Positions 10,253-39,452 of a stretch of 64,000 bases of DNA are shown piece by piece (the first letter of the stretch is position 1; the number at the start of each line of letters is the position of its first letter). The notes below the pieces were generated by a model that saw nothing but the letters and a program-made list of their open reading frames with translations, was not told the DNA's origin and did no database searches. The position numbers and the translations under genes were made by a program. Origin of the DNA: a virus. The stretch is from positions 1-64,000 of IMG/VR virus record IMGVR_UViG_3300046492_000458; one strand, written 5' to 3'.

Positions 10253-10289
10253 CTTGTATTGCGTACGTAATAGAAGATGGGTTACGGTG
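10253..10289 (+). promoter_or_regulatory. Conserved promoter/operator, copy 1
   Basis: The palindrome-like TATTGCGTACGTAATA is at 10258-10273. It contains the -35 TTGCGT (10260-10265); an 18-base spacer leads to -10 TACGGT (10284-10289). A 28-base block is identical in copy 2 and, on the other strand, in copies 3 and 4, while the flanks differ, which marks it as a selected regulatory element. It fires rightward into the gene run starting at 10357. Confidence 0.85.
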
Positions 10290-10356
10290 GTCACACAGCC
10301 CAGGACCCGCCCCAACAGGCAGTCCTCGCACCCTTCCTGACCTCCCGGAGCCCGCC

Positions 10357-10690
10357 ATGGCCGTGATGACGCACGCCCGAAAGGCGCCCACCAGCGTCGA
10401 CTACCGCGACCTCACCGACGCCCAGCAGGCCCGCCTCGACCACGTCCTCGAACTCGCCGACAGCACCAGCGACGCAGGCGAATACAACGCCCTGATGCTC
10501 GGCGTCGCCGCCCTCGCCGGCATCCACATCGCCTACGGCGGGCGAAGTCCTCCGCTGCTCCTGCACTTGCGTCTGCCCGGTCGTCTTCGACAACGCCGAC
10601 CCGGACGCCCGAACCATCGAAGAGTCCTGCGGCTTCAACCTGCCGATCCGACAGTGCCCCACCTGCGCCGACCGGCACCCCGCCGCCTGA
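10357..10690 (+). pseudogene. First gene of the rightward run, apparently frameshifted
   Basis: From ATG 10357 the frame reads MAVMTHARKAPTSVDYRDLT... to IHIAYGG (about residue 62) and then becomes Arg/Pro-rich nonsense. One frame over, sensible protein continues to a TGA at 10688-10690 with a cysteine cluster (CSCTCVCP ... CGFN ... CPTCADRH). Removing one G in the GGG at 10540-10542 joins the two. Either a sequencing error, a real pseudogenising insertion or a programmed frameshift explains this. The intact product would be about 110 aa with a zinc-ribbon C-terminus. Confidence 0.6.
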
Positions 10691-10706
10691 AAGGGAGGAG
10701 ATCCCG

Positions 10707-10874
10707 ATGAACGAGCCGACAAAGATCGACATGTCCGCCCCCAACGGCGAGGCAATCCGAGTGACATCCGAGAGCGGTGGCCACCTGGAGCTACACGACT
10801 CCACCCGGCCCGACGTCGCCCCGATCGTCCTGGACGACTTCCTGATGGCCGTTATGCGCGGCGAAGTCGCCTGA
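10707..10874 (+). CDS. Small hypothetical protein, 55 aa
   Basis: ATG preceded by AAGGGAGGAG, a strong ribosome-binding site. It reads MNEPTKIDMSAPNGEAIRVT and ends FLMAVMRGEVA. Acidic, beta-rich, family not recognised. The good ribosome-binding site is the main support. Confidence 0.5.
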   Translation: MNEPTKIDMSAPNGEAIRVTSESGGHLELHDSTRPDVAPIVLDDFLMAVMRGEVA

Positions 10875-10947
10875 CACCCGCCAACTCCCCGGCCGCGCAC
10901 GACCACGCTCTGCGCGCGCCGGGTGAACACCACCAGGGGAGACCCGC

Positions 10948-11568
10948 ATGCTCAGCACCGGCCGCATCCTCCGCAAGATGGCCACCGTCATCAACACCGA
11001 CGGCCTCCACACCGGAGAACAGTTCGGCCACCGCGGCGTCATCGACCAGTTCGACATCTGCGCCCTCGCGTACATCGTCGCCGAGGACAAGCCCGCCCCC
11101 GACGTCTTCTTCACCGACCAGGCCGCCTCCATGGAGCTCCTGGAGCGCAGCGAGCCCGCCATGCAAGCCCTGCGCGTTCTCTCCGCCTCCATCGCCGACT
11201 ACGAAGTCCCCGACACCGCAGGCCAGCCCGACGTCATCGAGCACGTCTTCAACTGGACCGCCGCCCCCGGCATCGGCCAGAAGACCCCGCCCACCACAGC
11301 CGAGATCGTCGGCCGCCTCATCCGCGCCTCCGAGACGCAGAAGCCCGACACCTACTGCACCGGCGACCGCTGCGCCGACTGCACCCCCGATGAGGAGTGC
11401 TGCGAAGCCACCTGCGGCTGCTGCCCCCGCGTCGACGAGCACGACCACTGTCGGCTCGCCCCCGGCAGCGAAGAGGACTCCAAGTACTGCGACCAGCACG
11501 GCGAGGGCTGGCTGTTCGACCGCTCGCCCGAGGCGGAGCGCAAGTACGAGCTGCTGCGCCGCGCCTGA
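10948..11568 (+). CDS. DUF6197-like protein with C-terminal cysteine cluster
   Basis: 206 aa, GGGGAGA upstream of the ATG. Residues 1-130 have a layout like DUF6197: an LRKMATVI helix, FDICALAYIV, then DVIEHVFNWTAAPGIGQKTPPTTAEIVGRLIRASE (compare the usual W-N-D..GRT..EV..L..A ending). The second half has eleven cysteines (TYCTGDRCADCTPDEECCEATCGCCPR ... KYCDQH), which should bind zinc. Two further genes here (19240, 46321) share the N-terminal layout. Function unknown. Confidence 0.65.
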   Translation: MLSTGRILRKMATVINTDGLHTGEQFGHRGVIDQFDICALAYIVAEDKPAPDVFFTDQAASMELLERSEPAMQALRVLSASIADYEVPDTAGQPDVIEHVFNWTAAPGIGQKTPPTTAEIVGRLIRASETQKPDTYCTGDRCADCTPDEECCEATCGCCPRVDEHDHCRLAPGSEEDSKYCDQHGEGWLFDRSPEAERKYELLRRA

Positions 11569-11603
11569 CCACCATTCCGCTGACACCGAAACGGACTCCC
11601 GCC

Positions 11604-11909
11604 ATGACGACCATGACCTTCGCCCCGGCCGACAACGCCTTCGCCCGCGACCCGTTCTACGCCCTCGGAGTCGCCGACGCCTACGACGAATACCAGGCCG
11701 GCGAGACCATCGACACCCTCAAGCGGCGCGCCAACGAGCTTCTGGACGCCGAGTACCCGAAGACCCAGAACATCCAGCCCGCCGAGCTGTACCGCCTCGG
11801 CTACGCCACCAGCATCGCCGGGATCCTCAACGGACACATCGCCACCGTCAACGCCCAGGCCGACGTGTCCCAGAAGTGGTGGGCGCGCAAGAACGGGCGC
11901 AAGGCATGA
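11604..11909 (+). CDS. Hypothetical protein, 101 aa
   Basis: ATG with only a weak ribosome-binding site. Helical protein (DPFYALGVADAYDEYQAGETIDTLKRRANELLDAEYP) ending in a basic KWWARKNGRKA tail. The stop overlaps the ATG of the next gene, so the two are translationally coupled. No family recognised. Confidence 0.6.
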   Translation: MTTMTFAPADNAFARDPFYALGVADAYDEYQAGETIDTLKRRANELLDAEYPKTQNIQPAELYRLGYATSIAGILNGHIATVNAQADVSQKWWARKNGRKA

Positions 11910-12055
11910 GGGCCCGGGTAGCTCAGATCGCGTTCACCCTCACCCTGATCGCCGCCGCAGTCCTCGCCGCCCCCGGCCGCGCCCACCCCACCGCCCCGGC
12001 CACCGTCCGGCCCGCCTGGACGACATCCGCGCCCGCGGCGGTGAAGGCGCGGTGA
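11906..12055 (+). CDS. Small secreted or membrane peptide, 49 aa
   Basis: ATGA overlap with the previous stop. The start MRARVAQIAFTLTLIAAAVLAAPGRAH reads as a short signal peptide or membrane anchor with a possible cleavage after APGRA; the rest is Pro/Ala/Thr-rich. Next to it lies another tiny membrane protein, so the pair may act together in the envelope. Confidence 0.5.
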   Translation: MRARVAQIAFTLTLIAAAVLAAPGRAHPTAPATVRPAWTTSAPAAVKAR

Positions 12056-12180
12056 CCTGGCCGGACGGCATCGCCGCCGCCGTCCTCACCGCAATCGCAC
12101 TCCTCATCACCCGCCACCAGCACAAGCCCCGGAGCACCACAGCCCCACCCAAGAACCCGCAGGACGGAGAACAGCAATGA
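12052..12180 (+). CDS. Small single-pass membrane protein, 42 aa
   Basis: GTG overlapping the previous stop (GTGA), and its own stop overlaps the next ATG. One membrane helix (GIAAAVLTAIALLI) is followed by a basic, Pro-rich cytoplasmic tail (TRHQHKPRSTT). The overlap on both sides is strong support that it is translated. Function unknown. Confidence 0.5.
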   Translation: MTWPDGIAAAVLTAIALLITRHQHKPRSTTAPPKNPQDGEQQ

Positions 12181-12812
12181 CCACCAGAACACGCGCTGCG
12201 CAGGCCACCACCCCCGCACCGGCCCCGAAGCCCACCGCCAAGAAGACGGCCGCGAAGCGCACCAGCACCCGGCCGGCCCGCAAGACAGCTCCGAAGCCCG
12301 CCAACCGGCCCGTGTCCCTCGCCAAGCGCCCGCGTGTCTCCCTGGTCAAGCCGCCTGCCCCGCTCCTCGTCCGCAAGTCCGAGTTCATCACCGAACTGCA
12401 GATCGCCGCCTACTACGCCGCCCGTACGCACAACCTGCCCGCCGGCCTCATCCGCGACTGGCAGGAACGCCCCGACGGCACCGTCACCCGCTCCTTCCCC
12501 TCCGGAGCCCTCCTCGCCTACACCCCCGACGGCAACTCCGCCGCCCCCTTCCACACCTTCACCCCCTGCGCCCAAGGCGCCCACCACTGCGAACCCATCC
12601 ACACCCCCAACGGCCTCCGCGCCGCCGTCGCCCACGCCGTCCACTGCCACACCCGCCACTACACGCCCAAAGCGCTGGCGCTCGTCGACGGCATCCAGGC
12701 AGCGAAGAAGACCACCGCGGACACCGAGCCGCTCTCCGTCACCACCATCGCCGCCGGCCTCGCCGCCCGCGCCGCCGACACCGAGACCCCGAAGGGACAC
12801 CCCGAGCCGTGA
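12177..12812 (+). CDS. Hypothetical protein with Lys/Ala-rich N-terminal arm
   Basis: 211 aa, ATGA overlap. Residues 1-60 are a basic Ala/Pro/Lys arm resembling histone-H1-like tails (KPTAKKTAAKRTSTRPARKTAPKPA), likely to bind DNA or RNA. Residues 65-170 form a folded domain with FITELQIAAYYAARTHNLPAGLIRDWQERPDGTVTRSFPSGALLAYTP and a His/Cys-rich stretch (CAQGAHHCEPIH). Family not recognised; it ends with a helix that overlaps the next gene. Confidence 0.6.
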   Translation: MTTRTRAAQATTPAPAPKPTAKKTAAKRTSTRPARKTAPKPANRPVSLAKRPRVSLVKPPAPLLVRKSEFITELQIAAYYAARTHNLPAGLIRDWQERPDGTVTRSFPSGALLAYTPDGNSAAPFHTFTPCAQGAHHCEPIHTPNGLRAAVAHAVHCHTRHYTPKALALVDGIQAAKKTTADTEPLSVTTIAAGLAARAADTETPKGHPEP

Positions 12813-13228
12813 CCGAGACGACGCCCGGCTTCGCGGCCGCCCTCGCCGCAGCCGAACACCACGCCACCATGCAGGCCCTCCGAGATCCCGCCTACATCGC
12901 CCAACTCGTCGCCCAGCTCGAGCAGGCCGTGGAGTTCCACATCCCCTGCCCTGGCCATCCCTACGGGCACCACGCCGACCTCCGCGTCAAACGCCGCCTC
13001 GACGGCCGCGCAGACGGATGGGCCGTCCTCAACGACAACCCCGGCAACGAACACGCCTGGACCGGCACCCAATGGATCTACCGCGGCGAACTCTCCCGCG
13101 AGCAGATCTACCGCTACGACCGCCAGACCGCCCTCGACGAAGCCACGCGCATCGCACCGCTCGAGATCGCCGCATTCCTCAAGCACGTCGGCCGCCTCCG
13201 CGCCGAACACCAGGAAGGAACCGCCTGA
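12809..13228 (+). CDS. Hypothetical protein, 139 aa
   Basis: GTG overlapping the previous stop. It contains an HHATMQALRDPAYIAQLVAQLEQAVEFHIPCPGHPYGHHADLRV segment and a WAVLND...TGTQWIYRGELSREQIYRYD segment. No motif allows a family call. The stop abuts the DUF5131 gene (TGATG), so the two are coupled. Confidence 0.6.
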   Translation: MTETTPGFAAALAAAEHHATMQALRDPAYIAQLVAQLEQAVEFHIPCPGHPYGHHADLRVKRRLDGRADGWAVLNDNPGNEHAWTGTQWIYRGELSREQIYRYDRQTALDEATRIAPLEIAAFLKHVGRLRAEHQEGTA

Positions 13229-14340
13229 TGGCCACCGACACCAGCATCGAATGGGCTGACAAGACATGGTCACCGATCATCGGCTGCGACCGGGTAAGCC
13301 CCGGATGCGACTCGTGCTACGCGATCAGCACCGCCCGGATCCGCGAGGGCAACCCGCACCCGCGAATCGCTGCGGCGTTCGCCGGCACCACCCAGCGCAC
13401 CGAAGCGGGCGTCGACTGGAGTGGTCGGATCAACCTCCTCGCCGACCGCCTCACCGAGCCGTTGCGATGGAAGACGTCCCGGAAGGTGTTCGTCAACTCT
13501 CTCTCCGACCTCTTCCACAAGAACGTCCCCGACGACTTCATCGCCAAGGTGTTCGCCATCATGGCGCTCACCCCCCAGCACTCCTACCAGCTGCTGACCA
13601 AGCGGCACGCACGGATGCGGTCCGTCCTGAACGACCACTGCACGTGCGGAAACGGCCACGTCCCCGGCGTCCACTTCCGATCCGCCATGGCCTGGGCCGT
13701 CTCGAAGGCCAACCCCGAGCGCATCCCCGGCGTACCCGACGACGCCGAACAGCGCGTCTACAACGCCCCGTGGCCCCTGCCGAACCTCCACCTCGGCGTG
13801 TCCGTCGAAAACCAGCACTGGGCCAACATTCGCATCCCCGCCCTCCTCGACACCCCGGCCGCCGTCCGCTGGATCTCCGCCGAACCCCTCCTCGGCCCGA
13901 TCCGCCTCAGCGCCTCCTGGATCCCCATCCCCGCCGACTACCGGCCTGTGGAACTCGCCGACATCCTCGGCATCGGGCAGCCGGAACGTCTGAACTGGGT
14001 TGTTGCAGGCGGGGAGTCCGGTCCGAAAGCCCGCCCGGCACACCCCGACTGGTTCCGCTCCCTCCGCGACGAATGCGCCGCCGCAGACGTCCCCTTCCTG
14101 TTCAAGCAGCACGGCAACTGGATTTCCCGGGACGACCTCGACGCCGACGCGAGGGCCTCCGCCTGGAACGAGAAGCGCGTCCTCTACGTCCACCCCGCCG
14201 ATGGCCGCACCCAGACCCACGGCCAGTGGGGCATCAACGACCACCTCGAGGGATGGGCCTGCGTCCAGCGCGTCGGCAAGAAGAACGCCGGCCGTGTCCT
14301 GGACGGTCGTACCCACGACGCGTTCCCCACGGTCCCGTGA
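13228..14340 (+). CDS. Phage Gp37/Gp68 family protein (DUF5131), three-Cys radical-SAM-like
   Basis: 370 aa. MATDTSIEWADKTWSPIIGCDRVSPGCDSCYA carries the family's C-x6-C-x2-C cluster, followed by KVFVNSLSDLFHKNVPDDFI, PQHSYQLLTKRHARM and WISAEPLLGPI, and ending with VAGGESGPKARPAHPDWFRSLRDECAAADVPFLFKQHG, all typical of phage Gp37/Gp68 proteins. The cysteine cluster is of the kind that binds an iron-sulfur centre in radical-SAM enzymes. The family is often seen with a partner called TcmP; none is visible here. Substrate unknown. Confidence 0.88.
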   Translation: MATDTSIEWADKTWSPIIGCDRVSPGCDSCYAISTARIREGNPHPRIAAAFAGTTQRTEAGVDWSGRINLLADRLTEPLRWKTSRKVFVNSLSDLFHKNVPDDFIAKVFAIMALTPQHSYQLLTKRHARMRSVLNDHCTCGNGHVPGVHFRSAMAWAVSKANPERIPGVPDDAEQRVYNAPWPLPNLHLGVSVENQHWANIRIPALLDTPAAVRWISAEPLLGPIRLSASWIPIPADYRPVELADILGIGQPERLNWVVAGGESGPKARPAHPDWFRSLRDECAAADVPFLFKQHGNWISRDDLDADARASAWNEKRVLYVHPADGRTQTHGQWGINDHLEGWACVQRVGKKNAGRVLDGRTHDAFPTVP

Positions 14341-14558
14341 ACGGCTTCCTCGCGGGCTGCTACCTCAAGACCGTCTTCCCCAGCCGCCGCACCGGACGCC
14401 GCAGAGCCCGGCAGATACGCGGCGAAGGCGGCCCCCGCCTCAACGACTACCGCTGCCGCTACTGCCTCGGCGTCCACATCGGACACAGCCACGGCGAAGC
14501 CACACACCTCCGCACCGGCCGCCACGGCCCCTTCCCCGTCCAGGAGTACGCCCAATGA
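14337..14558 (+). CDS. Small zinc-binding protein, 73 aa
   Basis: GTG overlapping the DUF5131 stop (GTGA). A basic N-terminus is followed by YRCRYCLGVHIGHSH, a CxxC/His cluster likely to hold zinc. Its stop overlaps the RusA start. The coupling between DUF5131 and rusA suggests a nucleic-acid role, but no family is recognised. Confidence 0.5.
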   Translation: MNGFLAGCYLKTVFPSRRTGRRRARQIRGEGGPRLNDYRCRYCLGVHIGHSHGEATHLRTGRHGPFPVQEYAQ

Positions 14559-15103
14559 CGCTCACCGATACCGCCCCCGCCATAGACCGGCAACTCTGCC
14601 TCACCATCGTCGTCCACGGCGACCCGGCCCCCCAGGGATCAAAGCGCTACGCCGGTCACCGCCGAAACGCCCGCTCCGGACGCGTCAGCGCCGTCCTCCT
14701 CGAACAGTCCACACGGGTCAGGCCCTGGCGGGAACGCGTGCACGCTGCCGCCCTGGCCGCCATACGGGAGTACCCGACCTGGAAGCCCCTCGACGGACCC
14801 CTCTCCGCAGACATGATCTTCGCCGTACGGACCAAACCGCAGTCCAAGCCCGTCTGGTGGCTCAAGGCCCTGCCCTGGTCCAAATACCTCTGGTGGCGCC
14901 CCGCATCATCCCCCGACCTCTCCAAGCTCCTCCGCTCCACCGAAGACGCCCTCACCACCGCCCGCGCCTGGAAGGACGACGCTCGAGTCGTCGAATACGG
15001 CCAACTCGCCAAGTACTACGCCGGCGACCCCAGCCACCCCGACGTCCTCACCGAACCTGGCGCGATCATCCGCCTCTACACCCTTCCCGGAGCCAACCGA
15101 TGA
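14555..15103 (+). CDS. rusA: RusA-family Holliday junction resolvase
   Basis: 182 aa, ATGA overlap with the previous gene. LTIVVHGDPAPQGSKR at the start, LDGPLSADMIFAVRTKP in the middle and the acidic catalytic region PDLSKLLRSTEDALTTARAWKDDARVVEYGQLAKYY (about residues 118-155) match RusA nucleases, which cut four-way junctions during phage recombination and packaging. The key Asp residues of the PDxxKL and DDA segments are present. The position beside WhiB, SSB and DUF5131 genes indicates the early phage replication/recombination block. Confidence 0.85.
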   Translation: MTLTDTAPAIDRQLCLTIVVHGDPAPQGSKRYAGHRRNARSGRVSAVLLEQSTRVRPWRERVHAAALAAIREYPTWKPLDGPLSADMIFAVRTKPQSKPVWWLKALPWSKYLWWRPASSPDLSKLLRSTEDALTTARAWKDDARVVEYGQLAKYYAGDPSHPDVLTEPGAIIRLYTLPGANR

Positions 15104-15561
15104 CCGCCACCGCGACCGAAACGCGCCTCCCTATGAGTCCTGCCGCGCCCGACACCGATTGGCGGACGGGCGCCGCCTGCCGGTACGTCGACCCCGACCT
15201 GCACTTCCCGACGGCCCACACGCCCGGCTGGCTGGAGCAAATCGATGATGCCAAGCAGGTCTGCGCTGGGTGCCCGGTAAGGAAGGCCTGCCTCGAGTGG
15301 GCGTTGAAGACCGGGCAGTCGGCCGGAGTGTGGGGCGGTCTGTCGGAACGTGAGCGCAAGGGCCTGCGCCAGCCGAGGGCAACATCCCTGGACAAGTGCC
15401 TGAGCCAGCGGGCATGGATTGAGAAGCAGCTCGACGCGGGGGTCACTCAGAAGTCGATCGCAGGCCAATTGGGCGTCGACAAGACGGCGGTATCGAAGGC
15501 AATCAGGCAGTTCAACGCAGAGCGGGAGCAGGCTGCTGCCGCACAGGGGGTGACGGTGTGA
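15100..15561 (+). CDS. WhiB-family regulator fused to a C-terminal HTH
   Basis: 153 aa. Cys27, Cys55, Cys58 and Cys64 form the C-x27-C-x2-C-x5-C iron-sulfur cluster of WhiB proteins, followed by GVWGG at residues 76-80. After a basic linker the C-terminus contains RAWIEKQLDAGVTQKSIAGQLGVDKTAVSKAIRQF (about 105-140), a clear helix-turn-helix. Chromosomal WhiB proteins normally act through sigma factor and lack such a domain, so this fusion may bind its own DNA site. Overlaps both neighbours. Confidence 0.85.
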   Translation: MTATATETRLPMSPAAPDTDWRTGAACRYVDPDLHFPTAHTPGWLEQIDDAKQVCAGCPVRKACLEWALKTGQSAGVWGGLSERERKGLRQPRATSLDKCLSQRAWIEKQLDAGVTQKSIAGQLGVDKTAVSKAIRQFNAEREQAAAAQGVTV

Positions 15562-16523
15562 CGAGGCGTCCCCCGAACAGCCGGGTACAGCACGGCAACG
15601 GGTCGTGCGCGGACTACGGATGCAAGCGGACCGAGTGCTTGGAAGCCCGCCGCAACCGCAGGAAGCGAAACAAGTTTCTTCTGGCCACGGGCCGTCCTGG
15701 CGATGTGGCCTCTGACCGGTCCGCTGCTCGCCTTCAGGCGTTTCGGCACGCCGGGTTGCTGGACAAGGAGGTCATGGCGCTGGTGGGCATTGCGCGTACC
15801 ACGTACTACCGGGCCTTGCGTGGCGAGCCCATTACGCGGGACTCGGAGCGAAAGATCATGTCGGTTCCTGTGCCGTCCCCCACCGGGATCATCACTACGA
15901 CGGCGATCGTGGACCGGGTTGGAACCCGCCGGCGGATTCAGGCTCTGATCTGGCTGGGCTGGCCGCAAGAAGTGCTGGAGGCGCGTCTGGGTGTCCATCC
16001 TGGCTGGATTGACCGGACCTTCCGACGTTCTGGGGTGCGGCTGACTGTGGCAGCCCGAGTGGGCCAGTTGTACAACGACCTGTGGTCGGTCCGTCCGGAG
16101 AATCAGGGCGTAGACGCGGAGCGCGCAGAAGAGACCCGCCAGTATGCGCGGAGTCTTTCCTGGAACGGCCCGCTGGCGTGGGACGACGAGACGATCGACG
16201 ACCCGAAAGCGCAGCCGCTCACGGACGTGGTGGAGCCGGTCGCGACCGAGGGCGGGAACGTCGCGGACCGGTGGCTGCACGGCGAGTCCGTCATCCTCCG
16301 CTCAGAAGACCGTAAGCAGGTCTTGCAGCACCTGTTCGAGTGGACCAACGACACCCCGGAAGAGATCGCCGCCCAGCTGGAGATGACGGTCGACGCGGTG
16401 TGGCAGACGTGGTCCCGCATCAAGAAGAAGGCCCGCCAGGAGGGCCGTACCGAGCCGTGGCGGCGCGTGTACGTGCCGCGTGAACGAGACCTGAGGCAGA
16501 ACCAGATGGAGGAAGCAGCATGA
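15558..16523 (+). CDS. Multi-HTH DNA-binding protein, 321 aa
   Basis: GTG overlapping the WhiB-like stop. The N-terminus has a CADYGCKRTEC cluster followed by basic residues, then LLDKEVMALVGIARTTYYRALRG (HTH, around residues 68-90), WLGWPQEVLEARLGVHPGWIDRTF (a second HTH, around 132-155) and DTPEEIAAQLEMTVDAVWQTWSRIKKKAR (a third, around 265-295). Several HTH units in a row recall sigma-like or terminase-small-like proteins. Likely a regulator or DNA-binding partner of the WhiB-HTH protein encoded just upstream. Confidence 0.7.
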   Translation: MTRRPPNSRVQHGNGSCADYGCKRTECLEARRNRRKRNKFLLATGRPGDVASDRSAARLQAFRHAGLLDKEVMALVGIARTTYYRALRGEPITRDSERKIMSVPVPSPTGIITTTAIVDRVGTRRRIQALIWLGWPQEVLEARLGVHPGWIDRTFRRSGVRLTVAARVGQLYNDLWSVRPENQGVDAERAEETRQYARSLSWNGPLAWDDETIDDPKAQPLTDVVEPVATEGGNVADRWLHGESVILRSEDRKQVLQHLFEWTNDTPEEIAAQLEMTVDAVWQTWSRIKKKARQEGRTEPWRRVYVPRERDLRQNQMEEAA

Positions 16524-17026
16524 GCACCACGATGACCTTGACCGGCCGGTTGACCGCGTCGCCTGAGCTTCGTTTCAGCGCGCAGGGAATGGCTGTAGCG
16601 GCGTTCACCATCGTTACGTCGCGGCGGGTGAAGGACCCGGCCTCTGGCGAGTGGTCCGACGCGGATACTACGTACTGGGACTGCAAGGCCTTCAAGCAGC
16701 TCGCGGAAAACATCTGTGAGTCCCTGGACAAGGGAATGGAGGTGGTCGCGGTGGGCCGGGCCGTGCAGGAGTCGTGGGAGGACAAGCAGTCCGGCCAGAA
16801 GCGTTCGAAGATTGCGGTCCGTATCGATGCGATCGGTCCGTCGCTTCGATCCGCCACGGCGAAGGTGACGAAGGCTTCGGGGAACTCGGGGCAGGGCCAG
16901 GGCCGGCAGGAGTTCCAGCAGGCCCGTCAGCAGCAGTCGGCGGGGTCGGGTGATCCGTGGGGTGCGGCGGCGCAGTCGGCGGGTCAGGCCGCGGGGTCGT
17001 GGGCTGGGGACGAGCCTCCTTTCTGA
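16520..17026 (+). CDS. ssb: Single-stranded DNA-binding protein
   Basis: 168 aa. Residues 1-112 form the OB fold (TLTGRLTASPELRFSAQGMAVAAFTIVTSRR ... YWDCKAFKQLAENICESLDKGMEVVAVGRA). A Gly/Gln/Ser-rich linker follows, ending in the acidic tip GDEPPF that recruits repair and replication proteins. This is a complete SSB. It is the last gene of the run headed by promoter copy 1 and is followed by a terminator, fitting early replication expression. Confidence 0.95.
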   Translation: MSTTMTLTGRLTASPELRFSAQGMAVAAFTIVTSRRVKDPASGEWSDADTTYWDCKAFKQLAENICESLDKGMEVVAVGRAVQESWEDKQSGQKRSKIAVRIDAIGPSLRSATAKVTKASGNSGQGQGRQEFQQARQQQSAGSGDPWGAAAQSAGQAAGSWAGDEPPF

Positions 17027-17045
17027 CCTGGTGAGGGCGTACGCA

Positions 17046-17076
17046 GAGGGGTCTGGCCTTCGGGTTGGGCCCCTTT
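17046..17076 (+). terminator. Terminator after ssb
   Basis: AGGGGTCTGGCC, loop TTCG, GGTTGGGCCCCT followed by TT forms a stable hairpin allowing G-U pairs. It separates ssb from the next promoter copy 20 bases downstream. Confidence 0.7.
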
Positions 17077-17095
17077 CGTGTGTGATCCTCCCGCA

Positions 17096-17132
17096 TCTTG
17101 TATTGCGTACGTAATAGAAGATGCCCTAGAGT
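17096..17132 (+). promoter_or_regulatory. Conserved promoter/operator, copy 2
   Basis: TATTGCGTACGTAATA at 17101-17116 with -35 TTGCGT (17103-17108), 18-base spacer and -10 TAGAGT (17127-17132). The 28-base core is identical to copy 1. It fires rightward into the gene run beginning at 17172. Confidence 0.87.
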
Positions 17133-17171
17133 GGACACACCGCACCAACCACCACCGTCCCTGGGGGACAC

Positions 17172-17708
17172 GTGAACCTGCGCCTTGTTGACCCGAACGG
17201 CCACACCGTCCCGGACTCCCTCCGCGAGAACGTGACCGCACAAGACGAAGAGAAGGTCAGCCAGGAACTCCTCACCGTCGCCGCCGCCAAGCACGCTGAA
17301 GAGTGGGCTGACTTCGGCTACAGGGTCCGTTATTACCGCATCGTTGCCGACCGACCCCACACCAAGCCCGTCCCCCCGACCGCCGACTTCCACGTAGCCG
17401 TGTCCCGCTTCATAGCGCTGCTCGAGTCCCGTCCTGGCCAGCGTGTCCCCGCCAGCAAGGGCCGGCGGCTGGCTTGGGAGGCCGTATACGGCGATCTGTG
17501 GACCCCGGATCGAGTCGGCGAGGTGCCCCCTGAGGGCCGACCCGCGCTTCGGGCCGTCGTGTCGCGAATCAATCGGCAGGCGTTTCCCGGCGGGGCGCGG
17601 GCTGCATCCGTAACTGCCGCCCACGTCAGGTCTCTCTGGCCGGACAGCTCGGCCTACATGACCCGGCAGGGCGAGCCCGACGACCCCAGCGACCACTACG
17701 ACCAGTAG
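17172..17708 (+). CDS. Hypothetical protein, 178 aa
   Basis: GTG start 40 bases after promoter copy 2, preceded by GGGGGA. VNLRLVDPNGHTVPDSL, a helical part (AAAKHAEEWADFGYRVRYYRI) and a C-terminal half with WEAVYGDLWTPDRVGEVPPEG and ASVTAAHVRSLWPDSSAY. As first gene of the run it may be an early regulator. No family recognised. Confidence 0.6.
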   Translation: MNLRLVDPNGHTVPDSLRENVTAQDEEKVSQELLTVAAAKHAEEWADFGYRVRYYRIVADRPHTKPVPPTADFHVAVSRFIALLESRPGQRVPASKGRRLAWEAVYGDLWTPDRVGEVPPEGRPALRAVVSRINRQAFPGGARAASVTAAHVRSLWPDSSAYMTRQGEPDDPSDHYDQ

Positions 17709-17719
17709 AGCCACCAGCG

Positions 17720-18147: not shown

Positions 18148-18167
18148 GCGAAGTGAAGGAGCCCGAC

Positions 18168-32397: not shown

Positions 32398-32492
32398 GGT
32401 CGGGTCCTCTCGGGTGGGGTGCGGGTGCCGGGGTGGATCCAGTCGACGGTCGCGAGGTATGTGAGCCCCCACACCACTCCGGCGATACACAC
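32394..32492 (-). CDS. Putative single-pass membrane micropeptide, 32 aa
   Basis: A GTG opens VCIAGVVWGLTYLATVDWIHPG, one membrane helix with a basic, Pro-rich tail, and its TGA overlaps the GTG of the next gene. Coupled start and stop support it; the ribosome-binding site is weak. Confidence 0.35.
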   Translation of the reverse strand: MCIAGVVWGLTYLATVDWIHPGTRTPPERTRP

Positions 32493-32500
32493 GGCGGGGA

Positions 32501-32716
32501 TTACGGGGTGGTCGTCCCCTCTGCCGTGGCGGTAGAGCAGGTGCAGGGCTGTTCCTCGAGGTCTTCGCAGACCATGCAGAGTTGTTCGTCCTGGTCGACT
32601 TCGGGAGTGTTGGACACGTCTTCGCCGCAGAGCGCGAGGTCAGGGTTGCAGCAGTACACGTGGGTCAGGTCCAGGCTGGTACTGGGTGTGGTGGGTGCGG
32701 GTGCGGTGTCGAGCAC
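32501..32716 (-). CDS. Small cysteine-rich protein, 71 aa
   Basis: HVYCCNPDLALCGEDVSNTPEVDQDEQLCMVCEDLEEQPCTCST contains eight cysteines in pairs, likely a two-zinc knuckle in an acidic protein. One of several such proteins in the leftward run. Function unknown. Confidence 0.5.
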   Translation of the reverse strand: MLDTAPAPTTPSTSLDLTHVYCCNPDLALCGEDVSNTPEVDQDEQLCMVCEDLEEQPCTCSTATAEGTTTP

Positions 32717-32734
32717 TGGGCGCTCCTGTCGTCG

Positions 32735-32962
32735 CTATAGAGACCAGAGGGTCGGCTGATATTCGAAAAGGGCCAGGGCGTCTTGCCCGGGGAGGGCGTC
32801 TGGAGCGTGGGGCACGGGTGCGGGTCGGCGGGATCGGCGTGAGGTGGGCCCGGTCAGGCGGCGGGCGCAGACCGGGCCGATGTCGCCGCTGCTGCGGGGC
32901 AACGGGCGGTGGCATTCCCGGCACCGCTTGACGTCGCTCATCCGGTCGTCCGTCCCATTCAC
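32735..32962 (-). CDS. Small zinc-ribbon protein (DUF6011-like), 75 aa
   Basis: GTG overlapping the upstream stop. KRCRECHRPLPRSSGDIGPVCARRLTG has the C..C.RPL....S...G..C pattern seen in DUF6011-like ribbons, common in phages and plasmids of actinobacteria. The tail (YQPTLWSL) is short. Possibly nucleic-acid binding. Confidence 0.55.
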   Translation of the reverse strand: MNGTDDRMSDVKRCRECHRPLPRSSGDIGPVCARRLTGPTSRRSRRPAPVPHAPDALPGQDALALFEYQPTLWSL

Positions 32963-33492
32963 GCCTCCTTGGCGGTTGGAGCGGTCGGGAAGATGTCCGG
33001 GTGCGCGGCCTTCCAGTCGAGCCAGTGCTGCATGGGCCCGTCGCCGATGGTGTGACTGCGATCCATGACCTGTTCCAGCGTGAGCGGCGCGGGGGCGCCT
33101 CGGTCGGGGTGGTTCGGCCCCATGGGTACGTAGGTAGGCCCGTAGATCCAGGAGCAGCGGCGAAAGCCCCAGTCGTCGTTGGCGTACTTGATGAACACTG
33201 TCGTGTTGCAGCCAGAGTCGACGTCGAGCGGGCGTTCCAGCAGCTTGCCCTTGTACCAGTCGTTGAAGAAGTAGTTCTTGTACTCCTCGATGAAGCTGGC
33301 GATCATCGCGGCTTCGGCGTCGGTGGGGCGTTCCTTGCTGCCCCAGCTGTAGCGGCTGGTGTCGACGTCGATGTAGGCGGCGATGTACTTCCAGCCCGGA
33401 TTGAAGCTGTCGACGACTGGGATCCGTAGCGCGGTAAGGGGATCGTCCTGCTTGGCGTCGGTGCCGAACGGCCACGCGGTGGTGTCGGTCAC
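32959..33492 (-). CDS. Hypothetical protein, 177 aa
   Basis: GTG start coupled to the upstream stop. Aromatic-rich beta protein: PVVDSFNPGWKYIAAYIDVDTSRYSWGSKERPTDAEAAMIASFIEEYKNYFFNDWYKGKLLERPLDVDSGCNTTVFIKYANDDWGFRRCSWIYGPTYVPMG. It resembles a ligand-binding or capsid-like fold more than an enzyme; family not recognised. Confidence 0.6.
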   Translation of the reverse strand: MTDTTAWPFGTDAKQDDPLTALRIPVVDSFNPGWKYIAAYIDVDTSRYSWGSKERPTDAEAAMIASFIEEYKNYFFNDWYKGKLLERPLDVDSGCNTTVFIKYANDDWGFRRCSWIYGPTYVPMGPNHPDRGAPAPLTLEQVMDRSHTIGDGPMQHWLDWKAAHPDIFPTAPTAKEA

Positions 33493-33674
33493 GCGGACTT
33501 CCTTCCTGCTCGTTCCTCGCGGATGCGGCGTCGGATCGGCAGTTCGAACGCCCACAGTTCGTCTGCTGTCATGCCGGTGTCCCTGAGCTGCCAGCGTGTG
33601 TCAGTGAGGGCGATTCCCCGCCGTATGCGGCCTTCGAGTTGGCGCAGCAGCTTCTTCCGGGCGGCGGTGGCCAC
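33489..33674 (-). CDS. Small basic hypothetical protein, 61 aa
   Basis: GTG start. ARKKLLRQLEGRIRRGIALTDTRWQLRDTGMTADELWAFELPIRRRIREERAGRKSA: two basic amphipathic helices, suggesting nucleic-acid binding. Overlaps the next gene. No family recognised. Confidence 0.5.
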   Translation of the reverse strand: MATAARKKLLRQLEGRIRRGIALTDTRWQLRDTGMTADELWAFELPIRRRIREERAGRKSA

Positions 33675-33676
33675 GG

Positions 33677-34420
33677 TCAGGCCTCCTTGCCGGGCTGGGA
33701 CACGGCGGCGCCGAGGCACTGGCACGGGGGCCGCACGATGCCTGCCTCCGACGTCATGACCACGCCACAGCGGCGCCCTCGCCCCATGCAGGCGCGATGC
33801 CCGCACTGGCTGCACCCGCCCTGCGTCTCGGGCTGCTGCGCCTCGCCGGCCATGCGGCTCGGGCTGGTCCCGCAGTCCCGCTCGCACAGTTCGTGGTCGC
33901 CCTCGGCGTGGGCCATCAGCCGCTCGTGCGTGTCGCACGGCTCACCGCCCGGCTCGCAGCCTCCGGCGCTGCACGGGGTGGCCACGTACTCGGCCTCGTC
34001 TGCCTTGCGGAGGAACGTCTCCATCAGGGCGAAGGCCCCGCCAGCGTGGTCGTTGAGGGCGCGTGCCGTGTACGCGGCGCCCGCCTCGTCGCACTCGTCG
34101 GCGGCCTCGCGCAGGAGAACGGCCCGTACGGAACGCGGGTGGTGCTCGATGGCGAGCTTGCCCATCCAGTCTGGCCATTCGTCGGTGTCCCCGATGCGGT
34201 ATTCCTGGTCAACGGGCGCGTCGGTGAGTTCGCCGTCCTCGCAGACCCAGGAGCCGTACAGGTGGGCGTGGATGCCGTCTTGCCGGTAGGTGAAGATGAC
34301 GAGGCCGGGCCGGATACTGCCGCTGTCCCATTTGTACTTCACGTCGGGCTTGCCGGTGAGGAGCAGTTCGACGGACTGGGAGGCGACGGTCACGGTGGCC
34401 TCGGTGGGCTGGTCGGTCAT
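33677..34420 (-). CDS. Hypothetical protein with C-terminal cysteine region, 247 aa
   Basis: ATG start. Beta-rich N-terminus (VTVASQSVELLLTGKPDVKYKWDSGSIRPGLVIFTYRQDGIHAHLYGSWVCEDGE), then helices (VRAVLLREAADECDEAGAAYTARALNDHAGGAFALMETFLRKADEAE), then a Cys/His-rich tail with CELCERDC-like and CSQCGHRACMGRGRRC segments. Several zinc sites are likely. Unknown family. Confidence 0.6.
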   Translation of the reverse strand: MTDQPTEATVTVASQSVELLLTGKPDVKYKWDSGSIRPGLVIFTYRQDGIHAHLYGSWVCEDGELTDAPVDQEYRIGDTDEWPDWMGKLAIEHHPRSVRAVLLREAADECDEAGAAYTARALNDHAGGAFALMETFLRKADEAEYVATPCSAGGCEPGGEPCDTHERLMAHAEGDHELCERDCGTSPSRMAGEAQQPETQGGCSQCGHRACMGRGRRCGVVMTSEAGIVRPPCQCLGAAVSQPGKEA

Positions 34421-34516
34421 GAGACGGCTCCAGGGGCGGGGAGGCGGGTCCAGGTCCAGCCTGGCGTGGATCGGGCACGGCATTGCCCCGGCCTGAGTGG
34501 CCGGGGCAGGGGGCGG

Positions 34517-34810
34517 TCAGGTGTTCAATTCGCGGCGTGTGGTGACCGAGTACGGCTCGAGGGTGAGAACGTCGCAGCCGCCGGTGAGGAGGATGGAGCC
34601 GTCCTCTGCCGGGGTGACGTGGCGGATCCCGAACGACTGGTCGATCTTCTGGGCTTCGGTGACGAAGTCGCCGTGCGCGAGGTCGCGGTCCAGGTAGACG
34701 CCGACGATGCGGGCGCCTTCGCAGGCCTCGCCGATGGAGAGGATCCATACGGTCGGGCCGGCCGGTGCCGTGTGCTGGGCTGCCGTGGCGGCGAGTTCGA
34801 TGTCGGCCAT
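34517..34810 (-). CDS. Hypothetical protein, 97 aa, first gene of leftward run
   Basis: ATG 34810 lies about 32 bases downstream of the -10 of promoter copy 3. MADIELAATAAQHTAPAGPTVWILSIGEACEGARIVGVYLDRDLAHGDFVTEAQKIDQSFGIRHVTPAEDGSILLTGGCDVLTLEPYSV is a small alpha/beta protein. Family unknown, though the strand pattern is well formed. Followed after 96 bases by the next gene. Confidence 0.62.
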   Translation of the reverse strand: MADIELAATAAQHTAPAGPTVWILSIGEACEGARIVGVYLDRDLAHGDFVTEAQKIDQSFGIRHVTPAEDGSILLTGGCDVLTLEPYSVTTRRELNT

Positions 34811-35645: not shown

Positions 35646-36944
35646 TCAGGCGACCTCGGCTTCACGGCCGCTATCCGCCGCCATCTCCCGCAGCCGTTCC
35701 ACGACCGCCCGGCAATCCGAGACCGCCCGATGGTCTCCGCCGTACAGGGGCTGCCACGCGTAGTTCCCCCAGTAGTCGGACCAGTCCCCGTACCAGTCCG
35801 AGTAGGGGATCATCGCGTCCTCGAACCGAACGCTGTTCAGCCAGGATGCCGCGGAGGCTTCCGGGTCGGTGTGGCCGGCCTGCCGGTAGTGCACGGTCAG
35901 CTCGTGTCGGAGTCGGGCGGTGTCGTACGGCGAGTTGTAGATCAGGCAGCGGCGGCCGGCCAGCGCAGCAGTGAGACGCACAAGGATCTCCGCGAACGAG
36001 GGAGCATCGGCAACCTCCTCGTCGGTGATCCCGTGAATGTCAGTCGCGTCTGAGGGAATCGGCTGCCCCGGGTTGACGAGCGTGTCCAGCAGAACGTCGC
36101 CAGCCACGGTGATGACCGCGATGTCGACGATCCGCGCATCGTCCTCGAGTCCCGTGGTCTCCGTGTCGAGCAGCACCACCGTCGGGTCGTCCAGCGCGGC
36201 CGCGGCCCACTCGGACAGCTCCCGCACCTGCCGCACCCGGGCCGCCTCGGCGTCCCGTTCCGCCTGGATACGCCGCTGCTCCCGCTCGGCGCGCTCGCGT
36301 TCGTCCCGCTCCTTGCACGGCGGGCACCACCGCGGCGACCATCCCCACGACCGGAGAGCCTGCGCGGCATCCTCATCCCACCCGGCGGCGATCTCTTCGT
36401 CCGTCGCGGTCACTGTCGTGCAGTCCCGGCCGGGGCACGTCCGGCGCCACACGGCCAGGCGTTCCCCCTCGGCCTGCTTACGCAGCGCGTAGTGGATCCG
36501 GCAGTGCTCGCACGCCCACCAGCCGTGCACATCCTTCGGAAGCGCCGCTCCGGCCTGACGGCGGCACCGGTGGCAGGTACGGGCCTGCCGGTCCTGCGCC
36601 TCCTTCTGCGCCCGGCTACGGCAGTCCTCACACCGCTGGTACACCACGTAGCCGCGGACCTCGCGGCACTCCGGGCAGGTACGGCGTGCGGTCATCGCCT
36701 GCTGCTGCTTCCCCGACAGCGGCCGCATCTTCGCCGCGCCGGCCGGGTCGTACAGCGGGAACTCTCCCCAACCGTGACCCCGCCGGTACACCCGCAGAAG
36801 TGCGACCGGCTCCTGGCCGTCGGCGGGCTTGAGACGCTGCTCCTTCAGCTGCGTCATGGTCCGCAGGTGCTTCAACGCCTCCGGGACCTCCTTCCGTTCG
36901 TAGACGGGCAGAGACTCCGGCTTGGCAGACGTGGACGCGGTCAC
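35646..36944 (-). CDS. DnaQ-like 3'-5' exonuclease with N-terminal zinc-ribbon array
   Basis: 432 aa from GTG 36944. Residues about 254-425 carry the DEDD exonuclease motifs: VLLDTETTGLEDDARIVDIAVI (Exo I), DIHGITDEEVADAPSFAEIL with CLIYNSPYDTARLRHEL (Exo II) and GGDHRAVSDCRAVVERL (Exo III, H..xD). Residues about 85-215 hold at least four CxxC pairs (CPECREV, CEDCRSRAQ, CHRCRRQA, CEHCRIH, CPGRDC) and a coiled coil (ERERAEREQRRIQAERDAEAARVRQVREL) links the two. Such exonucleases proofread or trim DNA ends; the zinc array may direct it to particular DNA or to partner proteins. Confidence 0.87.
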   Translation of the reverse strand: MTASTSAKPESLPVYERKEVPEALKHLRTMTQLKEQRLKPADGQEPVALLRVYRRGHGWGEFPLYDPAGAAKMRPLSGKQQQAMTARRTCPECREVRGYVVYQRCEDCRSRAQKEAQDRQARTCHRCRRQAGAALPKDVHGWWACEHCRIHYALRKQAEGERLAVWRRTCPGRDCTTVTATDEEIAAGWDEDAAQALRSWGWSPRWCPPCKERDERERAEREQRRIQAERDAEAARVRQVRELSEWAAAALDDPTVVLLDTETTGLEDDARIVDIAVITVAGDVLLDTLVNPGQPIPSDATDIHGITDEEVADAPSFAEILVRLTAALAGRRCLIYNSPYDTARLRHELTVHYRQAGHTDPEASAASWLNSVRFEDAMIPYSDWYGDWSDYWGNYAWQPLYGGDHRAVSDCRAVVERLREMAADSGREAEVA

Positions 36945-37127
36945 GGGCACCTCCAGGCAGGTCGACGGTCGTAGAGATAGCACAGCGCACGCCACTGACA
37001 ATGCCGGGCGAACAGGGCGCCATGTGGTGCTGCTGGTGGGCGCTGAGGCGTTGAGCTGGCCTTGAGCGCCCGTGCGCCCCCGCAGACACCCTCCCGACGG
37101 TGTCGGGTACGTCGCACGGTCGAACGC

Positions 37128-37358
37128 ATGGGGGCTACAGGGGAGTTTGAGTGTGTGGGCCGCGGCGACGGCAGCAGCTGCCCGCACGGGGCGGTGCTGA
37201 CCGTGGATGCCGGGATCGAGTACCGGTGTGACGACTGTCGGCAGTACTGGGACCTGGACGCTACGGAACCGGGACGTCGGATGGTGGAGGACGATTCGCT
37301 GACCCGGCCGATGGGGGATCCGGGGGAGGCCGGCCACGGGAGCGGCACCGCGGCGTAG
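37128..37358 (+). CDS. Small zinc-binding protein, 76 aa
   Basis: ATG start, weak ribosome-binding site. MGATGEFECVGRGDGSSCPHGAVLTVDAGIEYRCDDCRQYWDLD holds C...CPH...CxxC, a probable zinc ribbon. It runs against its leftward neighbours, so it is less certain. Confidence 0.42.
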   Translation: MGATGEFECVGRGDGSSCPHGAVLTVDAGIEYRCDDCRQYWDLDATEPGRRMVEDDSLTRPMGDPGEAGHGSGTAA

Positions 37359-37410
37359 ACGTCAGAACCCCGAAAGTCCGGCCACCAGAGGTGGCGATGG
37401 CCGGGCCAGA

Positions 37411-39003
37411 TCAGGCGATGTCGCCGAACAGGGCAACGCTGTACGGCTCGCTGAGACGCTGAACGCACAGCTGCGCGTAGGGCTCGTGCTGCTCGATGCC
37501 GATTGCCGTCATGTCCTCGCGGAGGGCCGCGGCCAGCGTGGTCCCGGAGCCGGCGAACGGATCCAGGACAGTCCCTCCGGGCGGGGTGACGAGCCGTACC
37601 AGCCACTGCATCAGCGCGAGCGGCTTGACTGTGGTGTGCGCGGTGCCGTCGGCGAGGCGGGGGCGCTCGGACGCGCGGGCCTTGGCCTCGTACCGGAAGA
37701 TCGGAAAGTACCTAGAGGCCCCGCCCTCGTCCTGGTGTTTGACGTATGGCACGCGGCCCTTGCACTCGCCGTAGGTGTCGGTGAAGCGAGTACCTGGTTC
37801 GTTACCTGAAAGGTTCCCGCCTGTCCGACGAATGCCGCTCTGCGCGTCCATCTCCGCGACAGGGCACCCGGACTGGCAGTGCCCGCCGTCGATGCAGTCG
37901 GGACCGTGGCCGAGAAGGACATTGGTCGGCCAACGGCCCGTGTCGGTCTCGCCTGCGGCCCGGGAGCCTTGCAGCCCGTCCCCGTAGACCTCGTTGCCAC
38001 TGCGCCGGTTGGAGACCCTACGGGGGCGAGCGCCGGACTCGACGCGGCAGCCGTCGATGTTGATCGCCCCGGTGCCGTGTTCCAGTACGTTCGCGACGGT
38101 CGTGTCGAAACCGGTGGACTTGCGGGCCAGGATGATCGGCTCGTGCGCCGGGCGAAGCTGGGTGTTCCAGCCGTGCCACTTTCGGGCCGCGTCGGTAGCG
38201 GGGGCCGTCAGGTCGTAAGCGCCGGCGCTGACGGGGGCGAGTTGCACGTCGGACTCGCCACGCACCCGGAAACCCTGGCCGATCACCTCCCGCCGGGCCC
38301 ACGCCTCACCGATCTCACCCTTGCGGCCATTCAACTCGGCCACGAGCGGGCGGATCTCGGCATCGTCGAAGCCGAGCAGATCGCGCAGGCGGTCCCACTG
38401 CTCAGGTGTCGGCACGATTGCGGCCTTACCTGCGAGCGTCGTCCAGTGGCTAGCCATGCCGTTGAAGCCGAAGGTGTCGTCGATCTGTCGGTGAGAGAGC
38501 CCGGCGGCATTGCGGGCGGCGGCCAGGAAGGCGGTCACCTGCAGGACTTGCGCCCGATCGTCGCGCCGCTTGTCGATGGCCTTGCCAATGTTCTGCCCCT
38601 TCGGCATCCCGGACCCGTAAATCCAGTGCAGGGAGTCACGGATCTCGAAGCCGGCGAGGCGAATCGCCATACCCATCAGGTCGGCAGTGCGCGGCGCCGC
38701 GAACGCCACAAGGTGGCCGCCAGGCTTGAGGACGCGCCAGCATTCATCCCACGCGGCGGGCGGCGGCACGAACCGGTCCCACGAGCGGCCCATGAAGCCA
38801 GCACCCTCGGGGACGTAGGCGCGGTCACCGGACAGCCAGGCGGCGAGGGCTTCGGCTATGACCCGCGGGTGGTGGTCGGCGAGCCCGTACGGCGGGTCGC
38901 AGACCACGGCGTCGACCGAGTTGTCGGCGAGGGTGGGGAGGATGTCGAGGCTGTCGCCGAGGTGGAGGGTGACGCCGTCGGCGCTGTAGTAGGGGTCGGG
39001 CAT
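37411..39003 (-). CDS. DNA methyltransferase with an inserted HTH-like region
   Basis: 530 aa. VDAVVCDPPYGLADHH (residues 31-46) is the catalytic DPPY motif and VLDPFAGSGTTLAAALREDMTAIGIE near the C-terminus is the AdoMet site. This gives the same order as the smaller methylase at 19703, but the protein is twice as long. LKPGGHLVAFAAPRTADLMGMAIRLAGFEIRDSLHWIYGSGMPKG follows the phage/plasmid N6-adenine or N4-cytosine methylase pattern. Between about residues 155 and 220, AARNAAGLSHRQIDDTFGFNGMASHWTTLAGKAAIVPTPEQWDRLRDLLGF looks like a helix-turn-helix inserted in the target-recognition part. No cognate nuclease is nearby. Confidence 0.88.
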   Translation of the reverse strand: MPDPYYSADGVTLHLGDSLDILPTLADNSVDAVVCDPPYGLADHHPRVIAEALAAWLSGDRAYVPEGAGFMGRSWDRFVPPPAAWDECWRVLKPGGHLVAFAAPRTADLMGMAIRLAGFEIRDSLHWIYGSGMPKGQNIGKAIDKRRDDRAQVLQVTAFLAAARNAAGLSHRQIDDTFGFNGMASHWTTLAGKAAIVPTPEQWDRLRDLLGFDDAEIRPLVAELNGRKGEIGEAWARREVIGQGFRVRGESDVQLAPVSAGAYDLTAPATDAARKWHGWNTQLRPAHEPIILARKSTGFDTTVANVLEHGTGAINIDGCRVESGARPRRVSNRRSGNEVYGDGLQGSRAAGETDTGRWPTNVLLGHGPDCIDGGHCQSGCPVAEMDAQSGIRRTGGNLSGNEPGTRFTDTYGECKGRVPYVKHQDEGGASRYFPIFRYEAKARASERPRLADGTAHTTVKPLALMQWLVRLVTPPGGTVLDPFAGSGTTLAAALREDMTAIGIEQHEPYAQLCVQRLSEPYSVALFGDIA

Positions 39004-39085
39004 CCGGGGCTCCCGCAGGTTGGTGGGTGGGCGCACCTTCACGGTGCCGTGGAATCTGTCGCGCGTTCCCCCCGCTTACGAGGGA

Positions 39086-39115
39086 GGGCCCACCCGGGGG
39101 GTGACGGGTGGGCCC
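39086..39115. terminator. Perfect inverted-repeat hairpin
   Basis: GGGCCCACCC and GGGTGGGCCC form an exact 10-bp stem with a 10-base loop between the membrane micropeptide gene and the methyltransferase. There is no T-tract. It could weaken leftward transcription from promoter copy 4 before the methyltransferase. Confidence 0.6.
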
Positions 39116-39118
39116 TGG

Positions 39119-39280
39119 CTAGAGGCGGATGGCGAGTAGGGGGCTTGCCAGTGCGGTGAGGGCGCCGGCGTCTTCGGATTGTCCTCCCATGGTGCGGATG
39201 AGGAAGTAGAGGGCGGTGAGGGCGAGGGCTTGCAGGTAGGGGGTCGGGTTCTGGTCGATGTGGGGGCGGTCGTCGGTCAC
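39119..39280 (-). CDS. Small single-pass membrane protein, 53 aa
   Basis: VTDDRPHIDQNPTPYLQALALTALYFLIRTMGGQSEDAGALTALASPLLAIRL: one membrane helix in the middle. GTG 39280 has GGAG 8 bases upstream; a GTG at 39331 is also possible. It is the first gene after promoter copy 4. Function unknown. Confidence 0.5.
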   Translation of the reverse strand: MTDDRPHIDQNPTPYLQALALTALYFLIRTMGGQSEDAGALTALASPLLAIRL

Positions 39281-39415
39281 TTCGGGGCTCCAGGAGGGCG
39301 TGGTGGGGGCTTGTCGGGGATGCTGTGGCACGCCCGTCCTGGAGTTTGGGGAGGGTCCGGGGCCGGCCGATCCTGGCCTGCTAGCTGTGTTCAGCCGGTC
39401 CCGGGTACGTGTAAG

Positions 39416-39452
39416 ACACTAGCCCATCTTCTATTACGTACGCAATACAAGA
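39416..39452 (-). promoter_or_regulatory. Conserved promoter/operator, copy 4
   Basis: On the minus strand TATTGCGTACGTAATA (39432-39447) contains -35 TTGCGT (39440-39445), followed after 18 bases by -10 TAGTGT (39416-39421). The core matches the other copies exactly. It starts the leftward run 39280 to about 35349 and lies just after the replication gene. Confidence 0.87.

Follow-up and report, generated by a model that had tools for sequence, protein, structure and literature searches.

A repeated palindromic operator at the early promoters of a pZL12/pSLE1-type Streptomyces phage-plasmid points to an autoregulated regulon with a predicted ribbon-helix-helix regulator

Introduction

In the phage-plasmid P1, operators for C1 are scattered over many early promoters as asymmetric 17-bp sites. 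Regulators with a ribbon-helix-helix (RHH) fold include Arc and Mnt of phage P22, which are single-unit proteins of one locus, and TraY of the F plasmid, which carries a double RHH in a single chain; VirC2 and TraY are both tandem RHH proteins. Here, we analyzed a series of palindromic sites in a stretch of 64,000 nucleotides (positions 1 to 64,000, called the window) of the virus record IMGVR_UViG_3300046492_000458, a 65,644-base (65.6 kb) fragment. The source element is a pZL12/pSLE1-type Streptomyces phage-plasmid, probably of about 90 kb, of which the record is a fragment. The sites are proposed to be operators of an autoregulated regulon over its early operons, with a predicted RHH protein as the probable regulator.

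The system resembles P1 C1 in its dispersed early-promoter operators and differs in that the sites are not asymmetric 17-bp sequences and the candidate protein is unrelated. With Arc, Mnt and TraY the candidate would share the RHH fold, including an Arc-like x-L-N-V-R pattern in its second unit, and with TraY also the single-chain double arrangement. Arc and Mnt, however, are single-unit proteins acting at one locus, whereas here a regulon of five promoters is proposed and several members of the protein family apparently contain four units. Cluster A mycobacteriophages (L5, Bxb1) likewise possess genome-specific motif sets, whose divergence tracks repressor divergence and bears on heteroimmunity (PMC6550527). 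Their stoperators are 13-bp sequences that mostly share one orientation; a genome may contain up to 30, most of them away from promoters (PMC6550527). In contrast, the sites described here are palindromes at five promoters, all located at a -35 element or beside one ribosome-binding site (RBS), and the candidate repressor has an unrelated predicted fold. A stoperator system of the mycobacteriophage kind was ruled out, as the sites are near-palindromic and located at promoters. In SPbeta, too, a single master repressor, MrpR, binds repeats (SPBRE) that are spread over prophage promoters; MrpR differs in being a recombinase-like protein with a 15 bp motif, and the part of its description used here contains no covarying operator series (PMC10516654).

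The closest described elements are pZL12 (NC_013420) and pSLE1, the latter described as highly syntenic to pZL12 (PMC4487206). They carry the same gene families, including the RHH protein (pZL12 gp030), a 76-aa helix-turn-helix (HTH) protein termed HTH76 (gp013), a 178-aa protein and ParAB. Operators of own spelling, GTATTGCNNNGCAATAC, were found in pZL12 at the promoter P1 and elsewhere, with a close variant at the RHH gene; they belong to another operator class than those of the window element, and the series is not marked in the pZL12 record. Neither this regulon nor the lysogeny control of this Streptomyces phage-plasmid group was found described in the open-access literature, subscription papers (including the pZL12 paper) lying outside the search.

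Results

Four identical operator/promoter blocks in the window

The 16-mer TATTGCGTACGTAATA was found in exactly four copies in the window at 0 mismatches, while 0.01 were expected by chance, and a search allowing 3 mismatches returned the same four loci only. The identical stretch common to all four places is the 28-mer TCTTGTATTGCGTACGTAATAGAAGATG, with differing flanks (Table 1). A first-pass annotation, made from the letters of the window alone, had read the same block, and direct reading and the exact search agree on it; its coordinates 17096, 34850 and 39425 stood, while the first was off by one (10252, not 10253). As also annotated, TTGCGT is followed at all four sites by a TAnnnT hexamer after 17-18 bp, and each site heads a co-directional run of genes. 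The proposed orientation had to be corrected. The sites had been described as facing outward from a central hub, but P1 and P2 on the left read rightward and P3 and P4 on the right read leftward, so that all four point inward, converging on about 25-29 kb. The description as outward holds only with respect to the opposite arc, which contains the late genes, the missing segment and parAB. A sigma-70 consensus scan detected no promoter in 9800-17300 and hence missed P1 and P2, as expected because their -10 hexamers are far from TATAAT. No further copy of the block was found in the last 1.6 kb of the record, and a scan of the window for degenerate extra operator sites yielded none above background.

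Each relative carries its own spelling at orthologous promoters

The relatives are plasmids of 86-99 kb, nearly all circular, among them Streptomyces plasmids in PLSDB (about 90 kb) and pZL12 itself. Using one marker, phage-plasmids were located in 17 of the 392 Streptomyces genomes sampled. Twenty near-complete relatives were assembled from fetched stretches, and genes were called with a simple codon-based caller. The nearest relative of the window element, G001, is a 93,191-base contig of S. olivochromogenes DSM 40451. The window element carries ParA and a conserved maintenance block with homologues in pZL12, and its 178-aa protein showed 43.6% identity to the pZL12 counterpart over 94%.

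Every relative examined was found to contain a near-palindrome of its own spelling at the orthologous promoters, the spellings including, from genome to genome, TATTGCGTACGTAATA, TATTGCGCGCGTAATA, CATTGCGYRYGCAATG, CATTGCCATGGCAATG, GCATTGCNATGCMATGC, TCCTATTGTGATCACCATGGGA, ACGTCTTGCTTAAGCAAGACGT and others. G001 has the same 16-mer as the window four times, at the corresponding promoters. The same site is thus present at several promoters of one element. Its absence from the host was examined in the genome of one relative: the four exact matches in the 11.7-Mb S. olivochromogenes genome are all located on the contig of the phage-plasmid, and none on the chromosome. With a matrix made per genome, 96 strong sites were detected in 21 genomes, nearly always intergenic; complete relatives had 2-6 strong sites each at orthologous promoters, with 0-1 coding hit per genome. 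The lowest counts (W07, 2; W09, 3) were obtained because cores of 13 and 14 bp occur together there, and a matrix of fixed width misses such sites. Sites recurred at P1, located downstream of the HTH76 gene and ahead of the first RusA/WhiB/SSB operon gene, at P2 and P3, at P4 on the methyltransferase/exonuclease side, and in a fifth region with two operators, O_a and O_b. The motif search thus returned no further site in the record itself and, in its relatives, genome-specific operators at the same promoters plus a fifth promoter. By this comparison the four promoters of the window are the visible part of a predicted five-promoter circuit common to all relatives examined.

The geometry of the sites was conserved as well. 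A TAnnnT hexamer at 16-19 bp was observed for 97 of 132 site-directions (95 at 17-18 bp), compared to 7 in shuffles; distal sites of W14 and W15 showed CATGnT in its place. TTG was present on both strands at 20/20 O_a sites versus 18/76 distal sites, which mostly carry it on one strand. Therefore, the half-site appears to be both -35 element and operator, and the symmetry of the site tracks one-way versus divergent transcription. The earlier proposal that the block is under selection and overlaps the -35 element is supported by the comparison with the relatives. Its single regulon over the SSB/RusA, methyltransferase and exonuclease operons is likewise supported, although not the number of four, given the fifth promoter with two operators in the relatives.

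A double operator at the gene of a predicted tandem RHH protein

The gene behind the fifth operator site belongs to one family in 20/20 near-complete genomes and was also found in pZL12. Two operators lie upstream of it, O_a at a divergent promoter and O_b near the RBS; in most of the 33 genomes compared, the 18-mer of O_b begins 22-25 bp ahead of the RBS. O_b resembled the O_a of its own genome with a similarity of 0.70, compared to 0.585 on permutation (0/20,000); L155 had an exact copy, and W02, W09, W10 and a few more genomes gave a weak or unclear match. By synteny, base 10257 of the window corresponds to 20740 in the record of W01, in which the RHH gene is located at about 32960-33600, which places the RHH locus of this element, by prediction, about 2 kb to the left of window base 1. 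Its position beyond the left end would explain why only four sites were seen in the window. Downstream of the RHH gene a modular recombinase slot was observed, filled by Rad52/Sak-like, ERF or RecA-like AAA_24 proteins (L135, L039, L051). The divergent gene often encodes a WYL-domain protein without evident HTH (L039:13694-14816, L054:1910-2341); in W01 the WYL-domain gene is followed by one for a PP2C phosphatase, and the WYL family was found in 16/20 genomes.

The product of this ubiquitous gene is predicted to be a tandem RHH protein. The family is diverged (17-52% identity to the G001 protein). Pfam Arc was matched by 6/20 members (best E 2e-4), an alignment profile reached weakly to SvtR (2kel) and Mnt in the PDB (E 0.2-0.6), and PHROGs gave no clear function. 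AlphaFold2 modelling (7 sequences, mean predicted local distance difference test 75.7) yielded a helical N-terminal region and two units of strand-helix-helix type, E62-70/H71-77/H83-95 and E115-123/H124-141/H153-164; in such a monomer model the two strands can pair only with each other. The top Foldseek match of the model was VirC2 (E 0.17), and VIA-align ranked chains of the F-plasmid relaxosome first (Z 7.3, 88 residues, root-mean-square deviation 3.0), of which we infer the matched chain, from its size, to be TraY. The Arc-like pattern lies in the second strand, and the first strand is variable at the positions expected to face DNA.

Operators covary with two regulator candidates

The spelling of the sites differs between related elements and covaries with the candidate regulators. 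Comparing the P1 operator with the O_a of the same genome in 19 genomes gave a similarity of 0.81 versus 0.61 when permuted (0/20,000), and in genomes added from Streptomyces assemblies and pZL12 the sharing of operators between P1 and the RHH gene was clear in most. In a rank regression of operator similarity over 32 genomes, from which L152, L154 and L163 were excluded for poorly resolved operators, coefficients of 0.23 (p 0.002) for RHH and 0.17 (p 0.016) for HTH76 were obtained, while the adjacent 178-aa protein reached 0.08 and was not significant. Mantel-type tests of RHH versus HTH76 were partly contradictory, with results in both directions. Covariation hence implicates both proteins and modestly favours RHH; the double operator at the RHH gene is, on this comparison, the stronger argument for the RHH protein.

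Discussion

We favour a phage-encoded, autoregulated repressor regulon over the early replication/recombination operons, whose operators would have diversified as immunity groups do, and in which the RHH protein, encoded about 2 kb past the left end of the window, would be the repressor; we put the probability of this reading at just under 0.6. Genome comparison has shown the sites, their promoter geometry, their conservation, their genome-specific covariation and their position at the RHH gene. The RHH protein is the probable regulator, and the arrangement suggests repression through the operators, lysogeny control and immunity, with the RHH protein as the putative binder, repressor and keeper of the prophage/plasmid state. 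A repressor fits better than an activator because the sites overlap the -35 element and a second site lies beside the RBS of the regulator gene. In the proposed mechanism the tandem RHH repressor, a single chain acting as a symmetric complex, would bind a palindrome of about 30 bp with outer CAT..ATG arms and inner TTGC..GCAA. As the inner half-site is the putative -35 element, binding would block RNA polymerase at the four early operons (SSB/RusA/WhiB, methyltransferase, HIT run and methyltransferase/exonuclease). At its own gene the repressor would occupy both O_a, on a divergent promoter of symmetric layout, and O_b, which precedes the RBS by about 5 bp, and this autoregulation would limit its own synthesis plus that of the cotranscribed recombinase (Rad52/ERF/RecA-like). 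The plasmid state would have the early regulon silent and the operator-free parAB and other maintenance genes active, and loss of the repressor would free all five promoters together. Each lineage would hold its own operator spelling and a co-diverged regulator, which would create immunity groups.

Several observations weigh against this reading. The RHH gene is absent from the record itself, its presence in this element resting on synteny, and everything said here about function is inferred from sequences. Structure comparison gave weak matches (Foldseek E 0.17, Z under 8), and such scores alone are no proof of a fold. A clear O_b match was missing in W02, W09 and W10, in the last of which an O_b-like site was seen by eye, and the operators of L152, L154 and L163 could not be resolved well. 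Nor is the RHH protein the only one to covary: in the first 20 genomes HTH76 scored above it (0.39-0.50 versus 0.24-0.31), and W06 and W08 have operators and HTH76 (88%) in common, yet RHH proteins of only 30% identity. Finally, cotranscription of the RHH gene with the recombinase also fits a down-regulator of the lytic phase.

The last point leads to the strongest competing explanation, which we consider possible but clearly less probable: the RHH protein would bind the operators as an Arc/Cro-like down-regulator of early genes in the lytic phase, or as a copy-number governor, and not as lysogeny repressor. Its gene is indeed the first of a recombinase operon behind two autoregulatory operators; negative autoregulation is, however, also usual for lysogeny repressors, and of the regulators seen in the relatives, no other was both universal and associated with an operator. 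A somewhat more doubtful alternative assigns the plasmid-state repressor to HTH76, which is encoded beside parAB and outside operator control, leaving the RHH protein only a target or a second, Cro-like reader. HTH76 is ubiquitous in the relatives, its covariation with the operators is about as strong as that of RHH and independent of the latter, holding even where RHH does not follow (W06/W08), and the neighbouring 178- and 84-aa proteins show weaker covariation in the 20-genome set; moreover, a terminator-like hairpin separates it from P1 and may insulate it from that promoter. On the other hand, its own promoter has no operator, and its putative recognition helix does not follow the sites. 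The helix differs strongly within class A (G001, G004, W01), where the operators are nearly the same, whereas similar helices in W02, W04/W17 and W10-12 go with three operator classes. Its domain match is weak (Pfam HTH_17, E=0.0065), PHROGs offered no clear function, and in W13, where five operators are present, HTH76 is frameshifted across the record start, possibly as an assembly artefact. More tentatively still, both proteins might be involved: two unrelated folds, an autoregulated lytic-side tandem RHH protein and a small maintenance-side HTH protein, would read the same rapidly diversifying operators in a CI/Cro-like switch, with half-sites that also serve as -35 elements and that by their symmetry determine whether transcription is one-way or divergent.

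The remaining explanations appear improbable. That a host transcription factor or a host promoter type stands behind the conserved block would agree with the coincidence of sites and -35 elements, but each phage-plasmid has an operator sequence of its own, which varies between elements from one host genus, and the exact copies in the host genome mentioned above lie only on the phage-plasmid contig. Even less likely is the GntR/UTRA protein, the evident classical regulator of the window. Its two domains are clear, and the first-pass annotation had pointed to LuxR-type and other HTH proteins of the window as possible regulators; there is, however, no operator at this gene, and G001, with operators identical to those of the window, has no homologue. 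As a common reader it was rejected, since no homologue was found in G001, G003, G004, W01, W03, W04, W12 and W17, all of which have operators. The best candidate gene thus lies outside the window. Equally unlikely are partition, packaging or recombination sites; repeated palindromes on a ParA-bearing replicon would suit them, but not the fixed spacing to -10 hexamers, the promoter-only placement, the directional asymmetry and the RBS-proximal copy at one regulator gene.

With the RHH repressor as the preferred candidate, the operator series predicts a regulon, its regulator and immunity groups. About 35 natural regulator/operator pairs make specificity change of tandem RHH proteins and host sharing by phage-plasmids testable. 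By analogy, the divergence in spelling would resemble the way in which related phages exclude or ignore each other's control proteins.

Features and neighbouring genes of the window

The coordinates are compiled in Table 1. By eye, the hairpin between HTH76 and P1 is longer, CCCTTGCCCCCAGACCTGTGGGGCAGGGGCTTTT; it is a consensus match only, from a scan whose total was near the shuffled number.

Table 1. Operators, operons and neighbouring genes in the window.
Feature	Position	Strand	Description
Operator/promoter P1	10252-10279	+	TCTTGTATTGCGTACGTAATAGAAGATG; -35 TTGCGT 10259-10264, 18 bp, -10 TACGGT 10283-10288; heads Gp37-like/RusA/WhiB/SSB operon
Operator/promoter P2	17096-17123	+	-35 TTGCGT 17103-17108, 18 bp, -10 TAGAGT 17127-17132; heads second rightward operon
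Operator/promoter P3	34850-34877	-	-35 TTGCGT 34870-34865, 17 bp, -10 TAGACT 34847-34842; heads leftward run 34810-29181
Operator/promoter P4	39425-39452	-	-35 TTGCGT 39445-39440, 18 bp, -10 TAGTGT 39421-39416; heads 53-aa protein/methyltransferase/exonuclease operon
Operon 1	10357-17026	+	DUF5131 (Gp37/Gp68-like) 13228-14340, RusA 14555-15103, WhiB 15100-15561, SSB 16520-17026, small open reading frames; gene calls, Pfam
Operon 2	17172-25299	+	16 genes including N6/N4 methyltransferase 19682-20458; gene calls, Pfam
Operon 3	29181-34810	-	10 genes including HIT-domain protein 30525-30887
Operon 4	35646-39280	-	53-aa protein 39119-39280, methyltransferase 37411-39003, RNase_T-type exonuclease 35646-36944
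ParA (6821-7966) and downstream partner	5901-7966	-	maintenance genes; no operator in catalogue
HTH76	9950-10180	+	76-aa HTH_17-like protein; gene end about 80 bp before P1 operator
Terminator-like hairpin	10217-10229	+	consensus match
GntR/UTRA protein	41304-42032		clear GntR and UTRA domains

The 178-aa protein (window 9292-9828) and the HTH76 of G003 (L053:6839-7081) gave weak matches to different parts of the 310-aa phrog_33896, and the two may be the split form of one protein. The N-terminal coding DNA of about 160 bp of the gene at 26302-27150 (-) was up to 93.7% identical to that of otherwise diverged Streptomyces phage-plasmids, in which the homologues are annotated as helix-turn-helix protein. 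In NZ_CP046906.1 (L028) a gene annotated as LexA (17616-18299) was found beside the match to window 27004-27162, which suggests SOS-linked control in some phage-plasmids. A second, unrelated inverted repeat, GTATACCGCGGTATAC, was found clustered in one relative (G003, L053) at 11065-11230 and 13196-13221.

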